IMG/VR virus record: IMGVR_UViG_3300043786_001077
Location: 1-50,211 of that record
Source: a virus
Reading direction: 5' to 3' (one strand)
DNA length: 50,211 nucleotides
The notes beneath the pieces were generated by a model. It made no database searches and had not been told where the DNA came from. It was given only the letters and a program-made list of their open reading frames with translations. Every line of letters starts with the position of its first letter. Positions within the stretch are counted from its first letter, which is position 1. The position numbers were made by a program, and so were the translations under genes. This document shows, one piece after another, positions 11,853 through 19,859 of this stretch.

Positions 11853-12812
11853 TTAGTTGGCGGGGTTTTCCGCCATGGCTTCGAGGGTCTCGGTCAACGC
11901 GCCGATGGCCTCTTCATGACCGGAGATGCGGTCGATGACTTCGCTGAGATGTTCGCCGAGGACTTCCTGCGCGATTTCCGCCACGATGGCGCGGAGATTT
12001 TCCGGCGTGATGGCCGACGGGTTTTCTTCTTCAATTTCCGTTTCGACTTCGCTCGCCTCTTCCATTTCGCCCGGCTCTTCGATCTCTTCCACTTTTTCAA
12101 TTTCCTTGCCATTCACTTCGGACGGCTTGCAGGCGTCCATCAGTTGTTTTTCGAGCAGGTCCACGTCGCCTTCCGGGTACATTTCCTTCCAGCGGCCGTA
12201 CATGGCCTTGAGCTTTTCCGCCACTTCATCGGCGGGCTTTTCCATCTCCTCGGACGGCTTGTGCGATTCTTTTTTCTTCACGACGCTGGCTCCATAACGG
12301 ACGATTCGGCCGCCTTCGGCGGATGGTGTTAGGTCGTTCTTGCCCGCTTCGGTTTGCGATTTGGCGCGCACCGCCAACGCTTCGGGATTGTCGGGGATGT
12401 TGACGAGACTGACTTCGAAGAGTTTTGCGCCGGTCAGGACATCGACCGGCTTGCCGTTGATGTACTTTTTGACGGGTTTATTCGCGGTGAACCCCGGCGA
12501 AAAACCGCGCTTGAACCCGAGCTTGTACTGCCGGTATTCGTTGCGCCCGGCTTCGGAACCCATGTCGAAGTAACAGCGCCCGAATAGACCGTTCGCGCGC
12601 TTCTCAATCGAATACTGCCCGTCGGGATGTTCCCACTTGCCGACGATCTCGCCTCTCAGGTCGTGCTTGACGAGCGCGATCGGGTTGCGTTCGTGTTCGG
12701 ACGTGTCCCATTCTTCAACGGGAACGTACTCGTTAGATCGGTCGATGACGGGGGCGGAGATCCATCCCTCGACCCAATTTTCGCCGACGGTGATTTCGTC
12801 AACGGCTGCCAT
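11853..12812 (-). CDS. Prohead protease with C-terminal acidic scaffold-like tail
   Basis: A 319-residue protein from ATG 12812 (MAAVDEITVGENWVEGWISA); a TTG at 12848 would add 12 residues. Residues of about 10-155 match HK97-type prohead proteases (S78): VIDRSNEYVPVEEWD, NPIALVKHDLRGEIVGKWEH with the probable catalytic His, YKLGFKRGFSPGF, and LFEVSLVNIPDNPEA with the catalytic Ser in EVSLV. The C-terminal half is a very acidic, helical tail, EEIEEPGEMEEASEVETEIE, ending in a coiled coil. This suggests a protease-scaffold fusion. Confidence 0.8.
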   Translation of the reverse strand: MAAVDEITVGENWVEGWISAPVIDRSNEYVPVEEWDTSEHERNPIALVKHDLRGEIVGKWEHPDGQYSIEKRANGLFGRCYFDMGSEAGRNEYRQYKLGFKRGFSPGFTANKPVKKYINGKPVDVLTGAKLFEVSLVNIPDNPEALAVRAKSQTEAGKNDLTPSAEGGRIVRYGASVVKKKESHKPSEEMEKPADEVAEKLKAMYGRWKEMYPEGDVDLLEKQLMDACKPSEVNGKEIEKVEEIEEPGEMEEASEVETEIEEENPSAITPENLRAIVAEIAQEVLGEHLSEVIDRISGHEEAIGALTETLEAMAENPAN

Positions 12813-12857
12813 GGCCGTTGTTGCCCGATGCCGTTCGGGCGCGGGCAAAAATGGACT

Positions 12858-15023
12858 ATGGGGATTTCAGGCCGCCTTTACGATGGCGTCATCGCATTTG
12901 CCAAAGCGGTAGCGGGACGCGAGAAGGTTGACAAGAAAGTGGCTTCGCTTCTGGGCGGAACCCCGGCAAGTTGGCGGGCGTGGTCGGGCGATCCGTATCA
13001 GCAGATCATCGAATACCGCAACTGGACGTATACCGCGATCCGCTTTCGTGCGTTGCGCCGTCAGGTGCCGCCGATCGTTGCGCGGTATGTTGACGCGGGC
13101 GAGATCGAGGGCGATCGGGCGGAGCGGCGGAAGGCGTTCACGTTCGGCGGCGCGATGCCAAAAAAGCGAAATATCGTTTCGCGGCAAAAGGCAATCGGAT
13201 CGGGTATCAGTCGGGTCGGTCACGAATTGGAATACCTGCCCACGTCCTCGGCCCCGATGCGATTGTTGCACGATCCGAACGATCCGCAGATTGGCATCGA
13301 CCTGTGGTATATGTGTTCGGTATTCGAGGACTTGACGGGCCGCGTGCATATCTGGAAAGTGCGGGACGGCGCGGGCCGGGTTGTCGAACTGTGGTATCTG
13401 CCCACGCAATGGTGCGATCCGCGACCGGGCGACGGCAAACTGATTAACCAACTGCTCGTTACGATGCCTTCGGGCGGGTCGGTGATCCTTGACGCGGACG
13501 ATGTGATTACAATCGGCGAGCCGTCGCCGTTTGGGTATCTGGCCTGGCAATCGCCGTTGCAGGCACACGGGTTGACGGTCGACCTGAATAACGCTCTGTT
13601 CGTCAGTCGATTCAACGGGCTGATAAACGGATCGCATGTTGGCAGCATGATTAAAGTGCCGTCGTCGATGGCGAATAATCCTGATTCGATGGCGCGCCTC
13701 GAGCAATCGCTGTTGAGCCGGACGGTCGGGACGATCAACTACAATCGGCCATTGATTGCGGAAGAGGGCGCGGAGCTTATCAATCTGACTCCGCAGATGG
13801 AGCTGGCGTTCAGCCAATCCGCGAACCAGATGAGGGACAATATCTTCGCCGCGTTCGATCTTGATGCGTCGGTCATGGGCTACGCGAATGAGGCCACTTA
13901 CGCGGCGTCGGTTGTCACGCAGAAAAACGTGTTCAACAAAGTGGTCAAGCCTTATTGGGAACGGCGTAATGCGACGCTGACCGAAAAACTGCTGAAAATG
14001 GAATTCGGCCTCGACTTGTGTGCGATCAATGAACACAAGACGGAAGAGACGCCGGACGAAAAGGAACGTCGGCTGCGGTTCATGAAGGAATCGGGCGCGA
14101 TTTCGGTCAATGAGATCCGGGTCGAATACGAAAAGGAACCGTATGACGATCCGCGATATGACGAACCGATTGGTTTTGCCGAATACGCTCGTCTAGACGC
14201 TGGCAATCCGAATGACGCGCCCACGGATGACTACGGGCAGACACCGCCGAGCGATTTTAATGGCGGACAAGATATTCTTACCGTTTACAAAAGTTTTACC
14301 GGCGTAATTACCGACGCAATTGGTCGAAAAATTCGTTACGTCAATGGCAAACGTGTCCCCATGGGTGGCGTATCACAAAACGCATCAAGTGCATCGCAAA
14401 GCGATTCAGAACTTTCACAGCAAACAAAAGTAGATACGTTCAAAACAAGAAAGCTGGACAATGATGACATCGAGGCACTAAACGAAGCTGGGGTTATAAA
14501 AAATCAAATAACGTACGACGAGCTCGAAAGGTCAATTCAGCCGTCTACGCCATCTGATTTGGATGGCGAATACATTTATCTTTGGCACGGAACAAGTTCA
14601 ACGGCGGCAAGGAAAATAGCCAAAGACGGAACTATTAAAGAAGGCGAACGAGGCCGAAATGCGACTGCCGATGTAAACCACGCTGCCGAATACCCAGAAT
14701 CTACTGGCGCGGATTGCTTGGTTTTGATAAAAGCCAAAGTCAGCGAAATAGGAATAGACCCAAACGACACAAACAGTAAAATTATTGATGCAGCAAAAAA
14801 TGATATTAACATAGCCAAAAAAATGAGTTTATTCCCTGAAAGTTACGACATAAAAGACAGAAGCTCTTGTTCGATTGGCAGCAACACAATTGTAGCTATT
14901 ATTAATATGCGAGATGGTGTTAGGCGAGAAGAAGCATTTTCATTTATAGAAAAAGGAAATTTAATGGATGCAATTTATAGCGGTGCCACGGTGGAATACC
15001 TTAACAGAAAAGAAACAAAATAA
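12858..15023 (+). CDS. Portal protein with C-terminal ADP-ribosyltransferase-like extension
   Basis: A 721-residue protein from ATG 12858 (MGISGRLYDGVIAFAKAVAG); ATG 12828 is possible. Residues 1 to about 460 are portal-like: YQQIIEYRNWTYTAIRFRAL, IDLWYMCSVFEDLTGRVHIW, ELWYLPTQWC, VIHI-like DVITIGEPSPFGYLAWQSPL and FGLDLDASVMGYANEATYAA. Typical portals stop there. Here a linker (ITDAIGRKIRYVNGKRVP, Ser/Gln-rich) leads to about 150 more residues with YLWHGTSSTAARKIAKDG, RNATADVNHAAEYPES and CLVLIKAKVSE. This is the H...Y layout of ADP-ribosyltransferases (PARP/KptA-like). The extension is clearly AT-richer than the portal part. Confidence 0.8.
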   Translation: MGISGRLYDGVIAFAKAVAGREKVDKKVASLLGGTPASWRAWSGDPYQQIIEYRNWTYTAIRFRALRRQVPPIVARYVDAGEIEGDRAERRKAFTFGGAMPKKRNIVSRQKAIGSGISRVGHELEYLPTSSAPMRLLHDPNDPQIGIDLWYMCSVFEDLTGRVHIWKVRDGAGRVVELWYLPTQWCDPRPGDGKLINQLLVTMPSGGSVILDADDVITIGEPSPFGYLAWQSPLQAHGLTVDLNNALFVSRFNGLINGSHVGSMIKVPSSMANNPDSMARLEQSLLSRTVGTINYNRPLIAEEGAELINLTPQMELAFSQSANQMRDNIFAAFDLDASVMGYANEATYAASVVTQKNVFNKVVKPYWERRNATLTEKLLKMEFGLDLCAINEHKTEETPDEKERRLRFMKESGAISVNEIRVEYEKEPYDDPRYDEPIGFAEYARLDAGNPNDAPTDDYGQTPPSDFNGGQDILTVYKSFTGVITDAIGRKIRYVNGKRVPMGGVSQNASSASQSDSELSQQTKVDTFKTRKLDNDDIEALNEAGVIKNQITYDELERSIQPSTPSDLDGEYIYLWHGTSSTAARKIAKDGTIKEGERGRNATADVNHAAEYPESTGADCLVLIKAKVSEIGIDPNDTNSKIIDAAKNDINIAKKMSLFPESYDIKDRSSCSIGSNTIVAIINMRDGVRREEAFSFIEKGNLMDAIYSGATVEYLNRKETK

Positions 15024-15066: not shown

Positions 15067-16818
15067 ATGCCTATTGACCCCGCCCACGGCCGCGACATTC
15101 CGAGCGGGGCATCATTTGCCCGCGTCGTCGGGCGTTTCCTTGCCCGCACCCGTCAGCGATTTTACGACGCCGTTCGCCAAGGCTATACGCCGAAAATCAG
15201 CCCGATGGACGCGCAGGAACTCGCGGCCGATCTCGTGCCGTTCTATATGCGAGAATTGGAGCTGGGCGCGCGCTGGTCGATGGTTCAATTGAGCAGGCCG
15301 CGCAGTTCGATGATCCGCCTGCCGCGCGGGGTCGCTTCGGCTGAGGGCTTGATCGTCCCGTCTCCCCGTGTTGTCGCAGCACTGACGCGACAACCGGGCG
15401 CGCCGCTTCCGATCATGGAACCGCCAACGCCAACGGCGCGGGTGACAACGCCGATTCCTGGCGGTACGGGCGGGAAGTTTGGCGTTGACTTGTCGCGGGC
15501 GTTCACGTTGTTACAGCCGACGGTCCGGCCCGCTGCCGAGGCAATGGCCACAAACTTCGTGGGCGAGTTGACCGGTACGACACAGCAGAAGGTCCGCGAG
15601 GCGATCCGCGACGGGTTGACGGCGGGCGAGCCGCTGTCGAAGATTCAGGCCCGGCTGATGGGCATCACGGAAGATGTGCCGACGGTGGCGGGGCGTGTCG
15701 AGAAGTTGAGCGTGTTTGATCGGGATCGGGCAATTACGGTCGGCTTGACGGAATCGAGCAGGGCACGCCATCGGGGTCAGGCGACATACGCGCAGTCGCT
15801 CGGATCGTGGGGCCTTGAATACTTGGCCTCGTCGGACGCGTGTGATCTCTGCCTATCGCTAAACGGCAAGCAAGTGCCGCACGGCGAACCGTTTTACGTT
15901 TGGCCGAAGGCACCGGCAGAGTATCGAAATGTTTGGTATCCGCCCAGCCATCCGAATTGCGTCGTCGGAGATACGTTAATTGCAAGTTGCGGCATCCAGT
16001 CGGCTATTCGCGGCATCTACAGAGGCGACGTTGTAACACTTTCGTTTGACGATGGACCGGATTTGACCGTTACCCCAAATCACATGCTCTTGACCGATGC
16101 CGGGTTTCTCAAAGCGGCGGACATTGTGAAGGGCCGCAATGTAATCCGCACACCGCTCGTCGAATCGCATCGTCTTCCAAACTTTAACGGCCCAAATCAC
16201 GACCACGCTCCAGCCTTGGCTCGTGATATATTTGACTCGCTTGCTGTATATAGCGGCGTGCTTTCCAGTAAAATGCCAATTGCCCCCGAAGACCTCCACG
16301 GCGATGCGGCTTTCTGCGATAGCCAAATCAATGTTATAAATGCCAAGGTTCATCTGCGGGATCGTTTCAATTCCGCGAACTTTGAGCCAATCGGCGACAG
16401 CAATTTCATACTTCGAAACATTGCTGGGATTGACGGCTCTTGTCGCGGCGATCTTCAGGCGATGTTCCACGCTTTGCTTTTTGCCACGAACGGCCGCATG
16501 GGCATTGAACGCGAGCGCCATGCGGCTTTCCTTGGGCATATTTTGAAATCGCAGAATGTTGGCTTCACTGCCGTTTCTGATTCGCAGGCCGATCTTTTTC
16601 ATGCAACGGATAATTCTCGGCCTACTGACGCCGATCGACTTCGAGATGCTCAAAACGCTTTGCCCAAGGTCGTAACGACGTCTCAGGTCATCGCAGTCAA
16701 TAGGCGTTTTCATAACGGTCCCGTTTACGATTTTCAAACTGCCGAAACGATGTACCTTGTCGGTCACGGGATTATATCCTCGAATTGCCGTTGTACCGCG
16801 ATCGACGTTTTCAGGTGA
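15067..16818 (+). CDS. MuF-type head morphogenesis protein interrupted by an intein
   Basis: The 583-residue precursor has extein residues 1-297 and 574-583. The extein has the MuF pattern: a helical N-terminus, TTQQKVREAIRDGLTAGEPL, ITVGLTESSRARHRGQATYA, and SSDACDLCLSLNGKQVPHGE with the CxxC pair. The family's closing motif HPNCRC is split by the intein between Asn and Cys and restored by splicing (HPN plus CRCTAIDVFR). MuF proteins act in head assembly and may be ejected with DNA. It follows the portal gene by 43 bases. ATG 15067 is the first good start. Confidence 0.85.
   Translation: MPIDPAHGRDIPSGASFARVVGRFLARTRQRFYDAVRQGYTPKISPMDAQELAADLVPFYMRELELGARWSMVQLSRPRSSMIRLPRGVASAEGLIVPSPRVVAALTRQPGAPLPIMEPPTPTARVTTPIPGGTGGKFGVDLSRAFTLLQPTVRPAAEAMATNFVGELTGTTQQKVREAIRDGLTAGEPLSKIQARLMGITEDVPTVAGRVEKLSVFDRDRAITVGLTESSRARHRGQATYAQSLGSWGLEYLASSDACDLCLSLNGKQVPHGEPFYVWPKAPAEYRNVWYPPSHPNCVVGDTLIASCGIQSAIRGIYRGDVVTLSFDDGPDLTVTPNHMLLTDAGFLKAADIVKGRNVIRTPLVESHRLPNFNGPNHDHAPALARDIFDSLAVYSGVLSSKMPIAPEDLHGDAAFCDSQINVINAKVHLRDRFNSANFEPIGDSNFILRNIAGIDGSCRGDLQAMFHALLFATNGRMGIERERHAAFLGHILKSQNVGFTAVSDSQADLFHATDNSRPTDADRLRDAQNALPKVVTTSQVIAVNRRFHNGPVYDFQTAETMYLVGHGIISSNCRCTAIDVFR
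15958..16785 (+). mobile_element. Intein in the MuF protein, double-coded with an antisense endonuclease gene
   Basis: The 276-residue intein begins with Cys (TGC 15958) as CVVGDTLIASC (block A). It has VTLSFDDGPDLTVTPNHMLL with the TxxH of block B, and ends GPVYDFQTAETMYLVGHG then ISSN before Cys+1 (blocks F and G). The last residue Asn and following Cys are canonical, but the usual penultimate His is Ser. The region between the splicing blocks (about 16140-16660) has no sense-strand endonuclease motif; it is the reverse complement of an endonuclease gene. All 276 codons are open. Confidence 0.88.
15976..16713 (-). CDS. Vsr-like (EDxHD-type) homing endonuclease encoded antisense inside the MuF intein
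   Basis: A 245-residue protein from ATG 16713 (MKTPIDCDDLRRRYDLGQSV); the frame is open up to 16767. Residues 7-45 are a helix-turn-helix (SVLSISKSIGVSRPRIIRCM) as in phage homing endonucleases. Residues 100-175 show the Vsr-like nuclease core: KYEIAVADWLKVRG (E103), GIYNIDLAIAE (D129), VEVFGGNWHF (H147), then SKRVKYITSQGWSVVVIW. This is the layout of EDxHD/I-Bth0305I-type enzymes. The gene lies wholly inside the intein and runs opposite to it. No strong Shine-Dalgarno is seen, so how it is expressed is unclear. Confidence 0.78.
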   Translation of the reverse strand: MKTPIDCDDLRRRYDLGQSVLSISKSIGVSRPRIIRCMKKIGLRIRNGSEANILRFQNMPKESRMALAFNAHAAVRGKKQSVEHRLKIAATRAVNPSNVSKYEIAVADWLKVRGIETIPQMNLGIYNIDLAIAESRIAVEVFGGNWHFTGKHAAIYSKRVKYITSQGWSVVVIWAVKVWKTMRFDERCADYIAALHNVRRFEKPGIGQEHVIWGNGQIRSIVKRKCYNVASVDAANSRLDAATCN

Positions 16819-17287: not shown

Positions 17288-17500
17288 ATGACCACCGCAC
17301 AAAAACAAAAACTTGCCATCGAAATCGTCATGGCCGTTGCGGAGACGATCCGCGAGGCGGGCGAGATCCCGTCCGGCCACCTCTACGCCGGCCTGATGGA
17401 AAAAGGCTGCACGATGGCGCAATACGACAACCTGATTCGCACCTTGATCGAGTCCGGCATCGTCCGCAAGTCGGGCCATATGCTCAAATGGGCTATCTGA
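17288..17500 (+). CDS. Small winged-helix-like protein
   Basis: A 70-residue protein starting MTTAQKQKLAIEIVMAVAET. The helices AETIREAGEIPSGHLYAGLM and TMAQYDNLIRTLIESGIVRK followed by a short strand (HMLKWAI) look like a winged-helix/HTH fold, the last part being the wing. It ends 8 bases inside the 3' end of the convergent terminase gene. It could be a regulator; no family name is certain. Confidence 0.65.
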   Translation: MTTAQKQKLAIEIVMAVAETIREAGEIPSGHLYAGLMEKGCTMAQYDNLIRTLIESGIVRKSGHMLKWAI

Positions 17501-19859
17501 TTCCCCATCCGCCGATAGTCGATTCGACATGCACGGTTACATAGCGCAAGCTGTCGCAATTATGCACTAGGATTCCATTCGCGACGTATTCGCCAGATTC
17601 AGTCGTGAGATTGTAAACCGGAGCAATCCGGTTTGTTTTTTTTACGGAAACGACACGAACAAGAGCAAAACTGTTTGACAGCATACCGATTGCATTTGAA
17701 TTCAGCACCGCAGGACTTGCAATTTCTGGATTCGTCGTCAGCCCCCGAATCTCTTCTTGCTGCTGATTTGCAGTTATTCCCGCAAAACTTGTTTTTACTT
17801 GTGTAAAAACACTCGTATTGCTTCCCGCACTTCTGGCATTGGAGCGAAATCTTTTTTCTGTTTTTAACAATTTCTTTTGCGTGCAATGAATGCCAAGCAC
17901 GCCCTTCAGGCGATCGATGCCACTCCTTAGCTTTTGGCACGCCGTATTTAACAATGATTTCAGCATATAACGCCCTGCGCTCTGGCGACAACGTTTCGGC
18001 GTGATGCTTGGCGTGATCTTCTTTTGTAATCGCACGCAAGTTTGCAGGGTGATTATTTTCAGTATCTTCGTCAATATGGTGGACGTGATAGCCTTCGGGT
18101 ATCGGCCCGTGAAAGTCTCTGTATATTTGCCGATGCAGGTAATCTTTTCCGTGCATTCGCTCGACAATCCCGGCGATGTAGTACTTTCTATCGCTTGTCT
18201 GTTTTGCGTTTGGGTATCGCCGGTACTTTGTTCCGTTGTACTCGATGACAACGGCTTTGCCTGATTCGTATTTCTTGAGTTGTAGTTGTTCCATAAAGAT
18301 ATATATCCTACTTCATCAGCGCCACAGATTATATTGCCTAATTTTTTATAGCCTTGTGTCGTCCATATTGGGTGATCGGAAGTCCCTTCAATTGTTTGGC
18401 CATTGGCAAGCTCTAAACGATATATCTCCGCTGCCGCGTTGGTCATTGCTGAATCTTTTACCGTTGCCATCCCATGCCGGGAAAGCACGCTATCGCCAAT
18501 TTGAACCGATTCGATAGGCGTCATTCCGCGTTGCGTATAAACCATTGTGCCAGCGACGAAACAGCCGTGGTTATTTGCATCCTCGGGGCAATCCTTCCGA
18601 GGATTCCAAACGTAAGACCGCATTTCCTCAATCGTCGATGTCGGTTTACCCTTGGCCCGTAATTTTGCGTCCGGCGCGTGCGTCAATGCCCCTTGTGTGA
18701 TATAGAGCCGGGCGCGTCCGTCCTTCTGGATGCGCAAACGTGACTGCACCTGTTGGATGCCCTTCCGCATATCGGCTTTGTCCGCCATCGTGCAATGTAG
18801 TCGCGAGTGACGGGTGAATGACGCTGCGTTCGTCGGGTCATGGTCGCACACAATCGCCTGCGGGCGCGGTTCGCGTTTTTCCTCAATCTCTTTCGCCGCC
18901 CATGCCGCCACGTCCTCGACGAGGCGTTCCGTCTGATACAATTCGCGATAGAGGTACATCCGCCCGTCGCCGTCCTTCGCCCAAAATTGCAACACCATCG
19001 GATCGTTCCATCCCCAGTCGATCGCCCAATATCGCGGCCACGACACGGGCGGGAGCGGCCCCCCGAATACTTCCTGGCAAGCGGCCGGCGTGAGGATATT
19101 GGTCTTCGGATCGAACGTGTCGTACACCAATCCTTCGGCGGCGGCCCATAATCCCTCAAGCAACCGCTTCCTCATGAACCCGGTGAGCGTGCCGAGTTGC
19201 TTGTCGAGGTATTCGCGCCCGTCCTCCGTCCAATCCTGGCCGTTGTGGAATCGCGGGTTATGTTCGTGCCTCGATTCATGCCCTGATATCAGGCCCGCGT
19301 CCATCAGCCGCTTGAGCCAGTGGTGGTCGTAGGTCGGATTGCAGTCGAGGATAATCTGCCGGAACGGCTTGCCCGCGAGACCGCCGTCGATCTTTTTCGC
19401 TTTCGTGAACTTGGCCCGTAACGCGCGTTTCAGGGAAAGGTATTCATCCTCTTCCAGTTCGGCCGCTTCCTGCACATACCCGCCATTGAATTCCGTGGAG
19501 AATAGCTTTTCGGGCTTGTCCATGCCCGCGCACACGATAACGGACCGGTTCGGCATTTCGTAGTAGTCGCGGGTCTTCCGCATCAGCGGGCGGTTCATCA
19601 GGACCGGCGACGTTTCGCCGAACACGTCATTTTCGAGCGTGACCAACGCTGATTCGGCCAGCGATGCCTTGGTTTTCCGAACGATAAACCAACGGGTTCC
19701 GGGATAGAGGTAGGCGAGGTGGACTAGTTTGAAAAGGCTGGCAAGTGTCTTGCCCGTACCGGCAGGCCCCCACGCGAGTGAGGCGGGCGAACGGTCGCGG
19801 TAATGGTCAAGATTCCCGCCACGGAAAACAGGCGCGGGCAGGATAAGGGGCGCACTCAT
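17493..19859 (-). CDS. terL: Terminase large subunit interrupted by an intein
   Basis: The precursor is 788 residues; without the intein the terminase is 453, the usual length. Walker A is GPAGTGKT (31-38), the probable Walker B/catalytic acid is at GGYVQEAAELEEDE (about 126-139), and the coupling motif is ILDCNP (170-175). The nuclease domain starts with YWAIDWGWNDP (D281), then IVCDHDPTNA. The third acidic motif, NNHG-CDSLRY, is split by the intein after Gly432. It packages DNA with TerS, whose gene overlaps its start by 4 bases. Confidence 0.9.
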   Translation of the reverse strand: MSAPLILPAPVFRGGNLDHYRDRSPASLAWGPAGTGKTLASLFKLVHLAYLYPGTRWFIVRKTKASLAESALVTLENDVFGETSPVLMNRPLMRKTRDYYEMPNRSVIVCAGMDKPEKLFSTEFNGGYVQEAAELEEDEYLSLKRALRAKFTKAKKIDGGLAGKPFRQIILDCNPTYDHHWLKRLMDAGLISGHESRHEHNPRFHNGQDWTEDGREYLDKQLGTLTGFMRKRLLEGLWAAAEGLVYDTFDPKTNILTPAACQEVFGGPLPPVSWPRYWAIDWGWNDPMVLQFWAKDGDGRMYLYRELYQTERLVEDVAAWAAKEIEEKREPRPQAIVCDHDPTNAASFTRHSRLHCTMADKADMRKGIQQVQSRLRIQKDGRARLYITQGALTHAPDAKLRAKGKPTSTIEEMRSYVWNPRKDCPEDANNHGCFVAGTMVYTQRGMTPIESVQIGDSVLSRHGMATVKDSAMTNAAAEIYRLELANGQTIEGTSDHPIWTTQGYKKLGNIICGADEVGYISLWNNYNSRNTNQAKPLSSSTTEQSTGDTQTQNRQAIESTTSPGLSSECTEKITCIGKYTETFTGRYPKAITSTILTKILKIITLQTCVRLQKKITPSITPKRCRQSAGRYMLKSLLNTACQKLRSGIDRLKGVLGIHCTQKKLLKTEKRFRSNARSAGSNTSVFTQVKTSFAGITANQQQEEIRGLTTNPEIASPAVLNSNAIGMLSNSFALVRVVSVKKTNRIAPVYNLTTESGEYVANGILVHNCDSLRYVTVHVESTIGGWGIR
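17559..18563 (-). mobile_element. Intein in TerL with a second gene in another frame
   Basis: The 335-residue intein starts at Cys (codon 18563-18561) as CFVAGTMVYTQRGMTPIESV. It contains IYRLELANGQTIEGTSDHPI with the TxxH of block B, and ends VYNLTTESGEYVANGILVHN before Cys+1. So Cys1, His-Asn and Cys+1 are all canonical, and splicing should restore NNHGCDSLRY. The part between the Hint blocks (about 17660-18330) is Lys/Thr/Ser-rich without endonuclease motifs in this frame, but stays open. In another frame it is an HNH gene. The segment is AT-richer than the flanking extein. Confidence 0.92.
17599..18294 (-). CDS. HNH homing endonuclease nested out of frame inside the TerL intein
   Basis: A 231-residue protein on the same strand as terL but in a different frame, from ATG 18294 (MEQLQLKKYESGKAVVIEYN). 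Residues 52-90 form the HNH site: YLHRQIYRDFHGPIPEGYHV then HHIDEDTENNHPANLRAIT (H72, H73, N81). Two C-terminal zinc fingers follow: CQKCGKQYE...CGNNC (about 152-175) and CKSCGAEFK...CSCSC (about 192-215). This is a complete free-standing phage HNH enzyme. TATAAT (18333-18328) lies 34 bases upstream, with AGGA closer, so it could have its own promoter. Its 3' end reaches into the block F coding region. Confidence 0.88.
   Translation of the reverse strand: MEQLQLKKYESGKAVVIEYNGTKYRRYPNAKQTSDRKYYIAGIVERMHGKDYLHRQIYRDFHGPIPEGYHVHHIDEDTENNHPANLRAITKEDHAKHHAETLSPERRALYAEIIVKYGVPKAKEWHRSPEGRAWHSLHAKEIVKNRKKISLQCQKCGKQYECFYTSKNKFCGNNCKSAARRDSGADDESRNCKSCGAEFKCNRYAVKQFCSCSCRFRKKNKPDCSGLQSHD

Follow-up and report, generated by a model that had tools for sequence, protein, structure and literature searches.

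How can one stretch of DNA carry an intein on one strand and a homing endonuclease gene on the other, and is each of the two frames more than a by-product of its counterpart? The question arises within the gene for a MuF-like minor head protein (positions 15067 to 16818, plus strand; 583 aa; Pfam Phage_Mu_F, E 6.5e-7; PHROG phrog_15127 head protein, E 1.9e-29) in the window, which is the whole 50,211-nt stretch analyzed here (IMG/VR record IMGVR_UViG_3300043786_001077). Between the exteins of this gene lies an intein of 276 codons (15958 to 16785, plus strand), located by splicing motifs, the Intein_splicing profile, a family profile and the Hint fold, and standing immediately before the Cys of an HPN/CRC motif (here and below, a slash before Cys or Ala marks the intein boundary). 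Its Cys1 opens block A (15958 to 15960), block B reads TPNH (16072 to 16083), the block F region contains H, NGP and VYDF (16711 to 16734, with VYDF at 16723 to 16734), and block G ends in S-S-N followed by C+1 (16777 to 16788, with C+1 at 16786). On the minus strand, an open reading frame of 738 nt including the stop runs from an ATG at 16713 to a TAA at 15976 to 15978, opposite intein codon 7 (TTA, Leu), and the gene is longer (15976 to 16767) if the upstream GTG rather than this alternative ATG is its start. Antisense codons are exactly in step with sense codons, a codon-aligned register in which sense position 1 is antisense position 3. All sense codons of the window intein are open, and the two other frames over the nuclease hold 8 and 15 stops. 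The first-pass annotation had listed Cys1, the TxxH block, the terminal Asn and C+1, had given an overlap of 738 of 828 nt and had described a sense frame open at every codon across the antisense gene; all of these, including its coordinates, proved exact. The overlap of sense intein and antisense nuclease is confirmed as real.

The identity of the sense product was drawn from the family rather than from the window sequence by itself, since the latter scored under the Pfam Intein_splicing cut-off (E 2.8e-4, 21 bits, cut-off 35.8), whereas the sense family profile matched solved inteins in the PDB (MJ0781 intein, E 3e-7; RecA intein, E 1e-4) and the modelled fold agreed. The proposed recognition of the sense protein by intein profiles therefore held for the family profile and the fold, but not for the window alone at the Pfam cut-off. 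Structure models were built from an alignment of the window with related loci; in the sense model, Hint parts of moderate to good confidence (residues 1–67 and 238–277) flank a disordered stretch (residues 68–237, pLDDT 23–34), and Foldseek matches were nearly all inteins (best E 0.006, prob 1.00). Both C1 and T39-P40-N41-H42 are invariant in alignment A7, as are the C-terminal N276 and C277 (+1), and Cys1, TxNH, VY(D/N), N and C+1 are retained among aligned members. Profiles, motifs and model together support the sense product being an intein, and the disordered linker is the residue of reading the antisense gene in the sense frame.

For the minus-strand protein, the Pfam match was to MTES_1575 (E 8.4e-9, slightly under the cut-off). 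A profile built from 20 antisense proteins matched I-Bth0305I (PDB 3R3P, "mobile intron protein," E 6.3e-7), and also the Neisseria Vsr-like endonuclease (3HRL) and the helix-turn-helix (HTH) domains of resolvases and transposases. Foldseek placed 3R3P at rank 1 in the PDB for the AlphaFold model of the antisense protein (mean pLDDT 66; prob 1.00, TM 0.64 on target). The HTH (residues 7–40 from the ATG; 16594 to 16695, minus strand) was indicated by the resolvase and transposase profile matches and by helices at residues 7–15, 20–27 and 31–40 modelled at pLDDT about 86–90. The nuclease core (residues 103–176; 16186 to 16407, minus strand) was delimited with alignment A1, the modelled strands and helices and the alignment to 3R3P; D129 and E140 are invariant in A1 and E103 is present in at least 90% of members. 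The earlier reading of an HTH and of nuclease homology was borne out, and its Vsr-like core agrees with the Vsr/EDxHD match. In place of the proposed E...D...H core, the residues found conserved are E103...YNxD129...VE140; as for the full E-D-x-H-D set, the window has a His further downstream (NWH) that varies among the members of A1. These matches and models support a protein that combines an HTH with an EDxHD/Vsr-type nuclease.

Nonetheless, an antisense frame may be a mere shadow of the sense gene, open by base composition and giving no protein. GC-rich genes commonly carry long codon-aligned antisense ORFs, and in the window alone the P values for openness are just 0.005–0.014 (sense frame about 0.014 from the genome's own codon usage; antisense frame given the sense protein about 0.005), values that are suggestive only, so that the weight is carried by relatives. 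In a tblastn search of 50,697 phage records, 125 records matched the antisense protein and 92 the sense intein, and alongside the window 42 related loci were examined, some nearly identical to one another, which came from viral contigs, prophages and cultured phages. At every locus with a nested nuclease, this gene runs antisense within a MuF intein and codon-aligned with it, and the sense intein frame has no stop, compared with 2 to 35 stops in the remaining two frames; sense-frame stops, whose occurrence in related phages the first-pass annotation had named as evidence that would count against the arrangement, are absent from all of these loci. The pairing occurs in phages of Escherichia, Salmonella, Pseudomonas, Vibrio, Klebsiella, Aggregatibacter, Gordonia, Mycobacterium and others. 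Across 17 divergent members, 0 sense stops were seen vs 99.8 expected from flanking codon usage (product P 4.5e-51), and the antisense frame is open even in a genome of 34% GC (L015), which argues against base composition as the cause. The same counts bear on the reading that the insert is removed as an RNA intron with an incidental sense frame: I-Bth0305I is itself intron-borne, but about 100 sense stops would be expected across the 17 members where none occur, and intein motifs sit at the exact boundaries, making this reading scarcely credible.

Substitution patterns distinguish which protein constrains which position. In the exteins, third positions vary most, with a ratio of sense position 1 to position 3 substitutions of 0.25–0.75, whereas under the nuclease this ratio rises to 1.3–2.7 in five separate groups; the check for selection in both frames that had been proposed at the outset thus yields a flip of substitutions from sense third to sense first positions, which are the antisense wobble positions. 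Beyond the antisense start, in the tail from block F to block G, sense wobble is again seen in three groups (0.00–0.14), and this return is less clear in two small groups of two sequences each. In blocks A to B both positions are slow, and both proteins matter there. As judged from these patterns, both strands are under selection. For the nuclease of the window itself, the nearest relative found shares about 34% identity, which is not close, and for this particular locus selection is therefore taken from the family.

A real nuclease could still be paired with a defunct intein, in which case MuF would be killed or lengthened, or the insert kept in the mature protein. Such an outcome would be compatible with the disordered middle of the sense product and with block G of the window, which is without the penultimate His (SSN/C; Guernseyvirinae members have AHN/C). 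The penultimate His is common, but not universal, among proven inteins. Against a defunct intein stand the retained Cys1, TxNH, VY(D/N), N and C+1 and the modelled Hint halves; in addition, the tail from block F to block G shows sense third-position wobble, clearest in three of five groups, and a disrupted essential MuF would not last in so many lytic phages. Although the ShiLan element (PMC11855218) offers a precedent for an insertion without a splicing domain, we consider loss of splicing decidedly unlikely.

The preference for an active intein with a translated antisense gene is also consistent with the register and the start signals. Shifted antisense frames meet unavoidable stops at 5 and 6 dipeptides, some of which most of these nucleases contain, and the codon-aligned frame is the sole antisense register without unavoidable stops; it can always be cleared of stops because TTA, CTA and TCA all have synonyms, and this explains why the same register is found everywhere. 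Most relatives place the antisense ATG opposite the block F His codon CAT (HVY(N/D)L), as the window does. A Shine-Dalgarno sequence of the GGAG/GAGG/AAGG type lies 4–11 nt upstream of the antisense start in 10 of 14 divergent members, where the sense amino acids would lead one to expect 3.3 of 14 (P 1.5e-4), an excess that points to antisense translation since the stretch otherwise codes only for the intein. The window ATG at 16713 is without such a sequence, and its GTG start at 16767 has a GAGG 10 nt upstream (16778 to 16781, minus strand). Collectively, these signals suggest that the minus strand is translated. No convincing minus-strand promoter was found by promoter scans, in which counts were near those of shuffles; the leftward terminase gene (17493 to 19859) could feed minus-strand transcription in the window. 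With the catalytic residues conserved, the Shine-Dalgarno excess at the start, the product identified by Pfam, PDB and Foldseek searches and the wobble tracking the antisense frame in mid-intein, a shadow ORF without a product is highly improbable; wobble flip and homology refute it, unless they are artefacts.

If both products are real, do they spread together? Alleles with and without the element were found in related phages. A viral contig whose MuF is 97% identical to that of the window over residues 1–298 is free of the intein, the site reading HPSCRC, Salmonella phage ER10 is without exactly the 816 nt (272 codons) present in LSPA1, and the MuF genes of E. coli phage Bas71 and of SETP3 are also intein-less. 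The endonuclease might home independently and merely be located in the intein, with no joint spread; a free-standing relative beside an intein-less MuF in Acinetobacter phages would be in keeping with this. However, intein-less alleles are without the whole 816 nt rather than the nuclease alone, and the nuclease gene extends from a start close to block F to a stop within block A, so that any transfer of it would take most of the intein along, and we regard independent homing as unlikely. The free-standing relative (locus L016, 455–1345; Acinetobacter phage IME285, and also BUCT629 and P1068) belongs to the same nuclease family and is convergent with, and just downstream of, the MuF gene; its sense frame has 12 stops vs 9.3 expected, which indicates that this frame closes once the nuclease sits outside an intein. 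It is possible that it represents an escaped or ancestral form. The nuclease tree has few supported deep branches, and no claim is therefore made on direction of transfer or on free-standing ancestry.

Taken as joint spread of intein and nuclease, the observations fit the following scheme. The sense strand would be translated within MuF, and the Hint halves (the first about 67 and the last about 40 residues) would excise the intein, the roughly 170 codons between them being read merely as a disordered linker. The minus strand would be transcribed separately to give the HTH and EDxHD/Vsr-type nuclease, which would cut MuF alleles devoid of the intein at the conserved HPNC codons, with repair copying the intein in; cleavage and homing are suggested by homology and by the filled and empty alleles. 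MuF would require an open sense frame and mobility an open antisense frame, and both demands can be satisfied because each sense stop corresponds to an antisense TTA, CTA or TCA, which a synonym can replace. We infer protein splicing, minus-strand translation, cleavage at HPNC and homing alike, and judge it very probable from sequence and models that MuF splices and that a separately expressed antisense endonuclease drives homing. We further lean toward viewing the whole as an old and widely dispersed selfish element with a splicing element on one strand and a homing endonuclease on the other, in which splicing blocks supply the ribosome-binding site, start and stop of the endonuclease, so that it is expressed apart from the host gene.

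Canonical mobile inteins, with in-frame LAGLIDADG or HNH endonucleases, likewise have Hint blocks, insert at conserved motifs of important genes, carry the endonuclease between blocks B and F and occur as filled and empty alleles; here, in contrast, a separate gene on the other strand, overlapping blocks A to F, encodes the endonuclease, and the stretch fused in frame is a disordered linker. Known EDxHD members are intron-borne or lie between split intein halves. The I-Bth0305I/EDxHD endonucleases (3R3P) share the catalytic fold, the E..D..E pattern (by profile and structure) and a phage homing context with the antisense product, but the gene described here lies antisense inside one unbroken intein. 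As cited in PMC12350094, the EDxHD gene family was first described with the split inteins of "fractured genes" (Dassa et al. 2009). Same-strand, hidden, out-of-frame HNH insertions in phage genes have been published as the ShiLan domain (Arsenault, Gosselin and Gogarten 2025, PMC11855218), with the insert proposed to be retained in the mature protein. In both cases, the host frame is open across a homing endonuclease in another frame; the ShiLan domain, however, is an HNH insertion on the same strand of a methylase host with no splicing domain detected, whereas the present element is on the opposite strand, of the EDxHD family and within a recognizable intein (Hint domain). Among the works that PMC11855218 cites are Gorbalenya 1998 and a preprint on actinobacteriophage inteins with "non-canonical architecture" (10.1101/2025.01.02.630785). 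The first-pass annotation knew of no described case, and in the literature that could be searched, which does not include that preprint, a work that may cover the Gordonia cases, no paper describes an intein with its endonuclease encoded antisense, but the idea of an overlapped endonuclease had been published for the same strand (PMC11855218). That part of the antisense arrangement has been noted previously by someone is a real, if minority, possibility. The intein alone has been noted in UPWr_S phages, as an "intein-containing capsid morphogenesis protein" (PMC8425127), and the Snoke record carries the same kind of annotation, for the intein only; these records and the phrog_15127 "head protein" belong to the same MuF intein family, but the antisense nuclease is unannotated in the records examined.

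Antisense overlap of two bacterial genes along most of their length, with each product identified, is seldom encountered and is contested. In the present case, each product falls into a known enzyme family, the overlap is old and shared among phages whose hosts differ widely, and substitution patterns reveal the constraint acting on either strand. To in-frame fusion and split inteins, the arrangement adds a third mode in which an intein can carry an endonuclease, and its antisense placement explains why intein scans miss the endonuclease. Since cultured phages exist with (Snoke, LSPA1) and without (Bas71, ER10, SETP3) the element, splicing, antisense expression and homing are directly testable.

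Insertion sites differ in a few members, at DSRTSTT/C in Escherichia phage BEU35 and at another MuF Cys in Sejanus. The BEU35 sense ORF (around 725–1489 of locus L019) holds at this second site a very diverged intein, also with an antisense nuclease, and the HPNC site of this phage is empty. In Rhodococcus phage REQ3 (L017), the intein seemingly begins with Ala (HPN/AVLEGST) and the antisense nuclease is without the HTH part; this may possibly reflect decay of the copy or membership of another splicing class. When viral contigs were scanned with the window proteins, one relative only was returned, which is intein-less; the profile of 20 sequences proved too heterogeneous for pattern scanning, and closer sub-alignments were partly successful. 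A candidate recovered via the Guernseyvirinae alignment (L026) was rejected as an unrelated LAGLIDADG-like gene with the HTH alone in common, and an apparent broken intein in GE_vB_M5 was set aside, the record being unverified and frameshifted throughout MuF.

In the same phage, the terminase large subunit gene (17493 to 19859, minus strand) also contains an intein at about 17556 to 18563 (CFVAGT...VHN/C), and an HNH_3 endonuclease ORF (17599 to 18294, minus strand; E 3e-16) overlaps it in another frame of the same strand. The same frame relation occurs in Tetrasphaera phage TJE1 and Acinetobacter phage Highwayman, where intein and HNH frames are also both open and the third frame has 9–25 stops; this overlap links the "hidden HNH" concept already published with a genuine splicing domain. 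In the portal protein ORF (12627 to 15023, plus strand; 798 aa), the Pfam Phage_portal match is limited to residues 211–499, and about 200 residues at the C terminus (EYIYLWHGTSSTAARKIAKDG...) have the look of an added, unrecognized domain.
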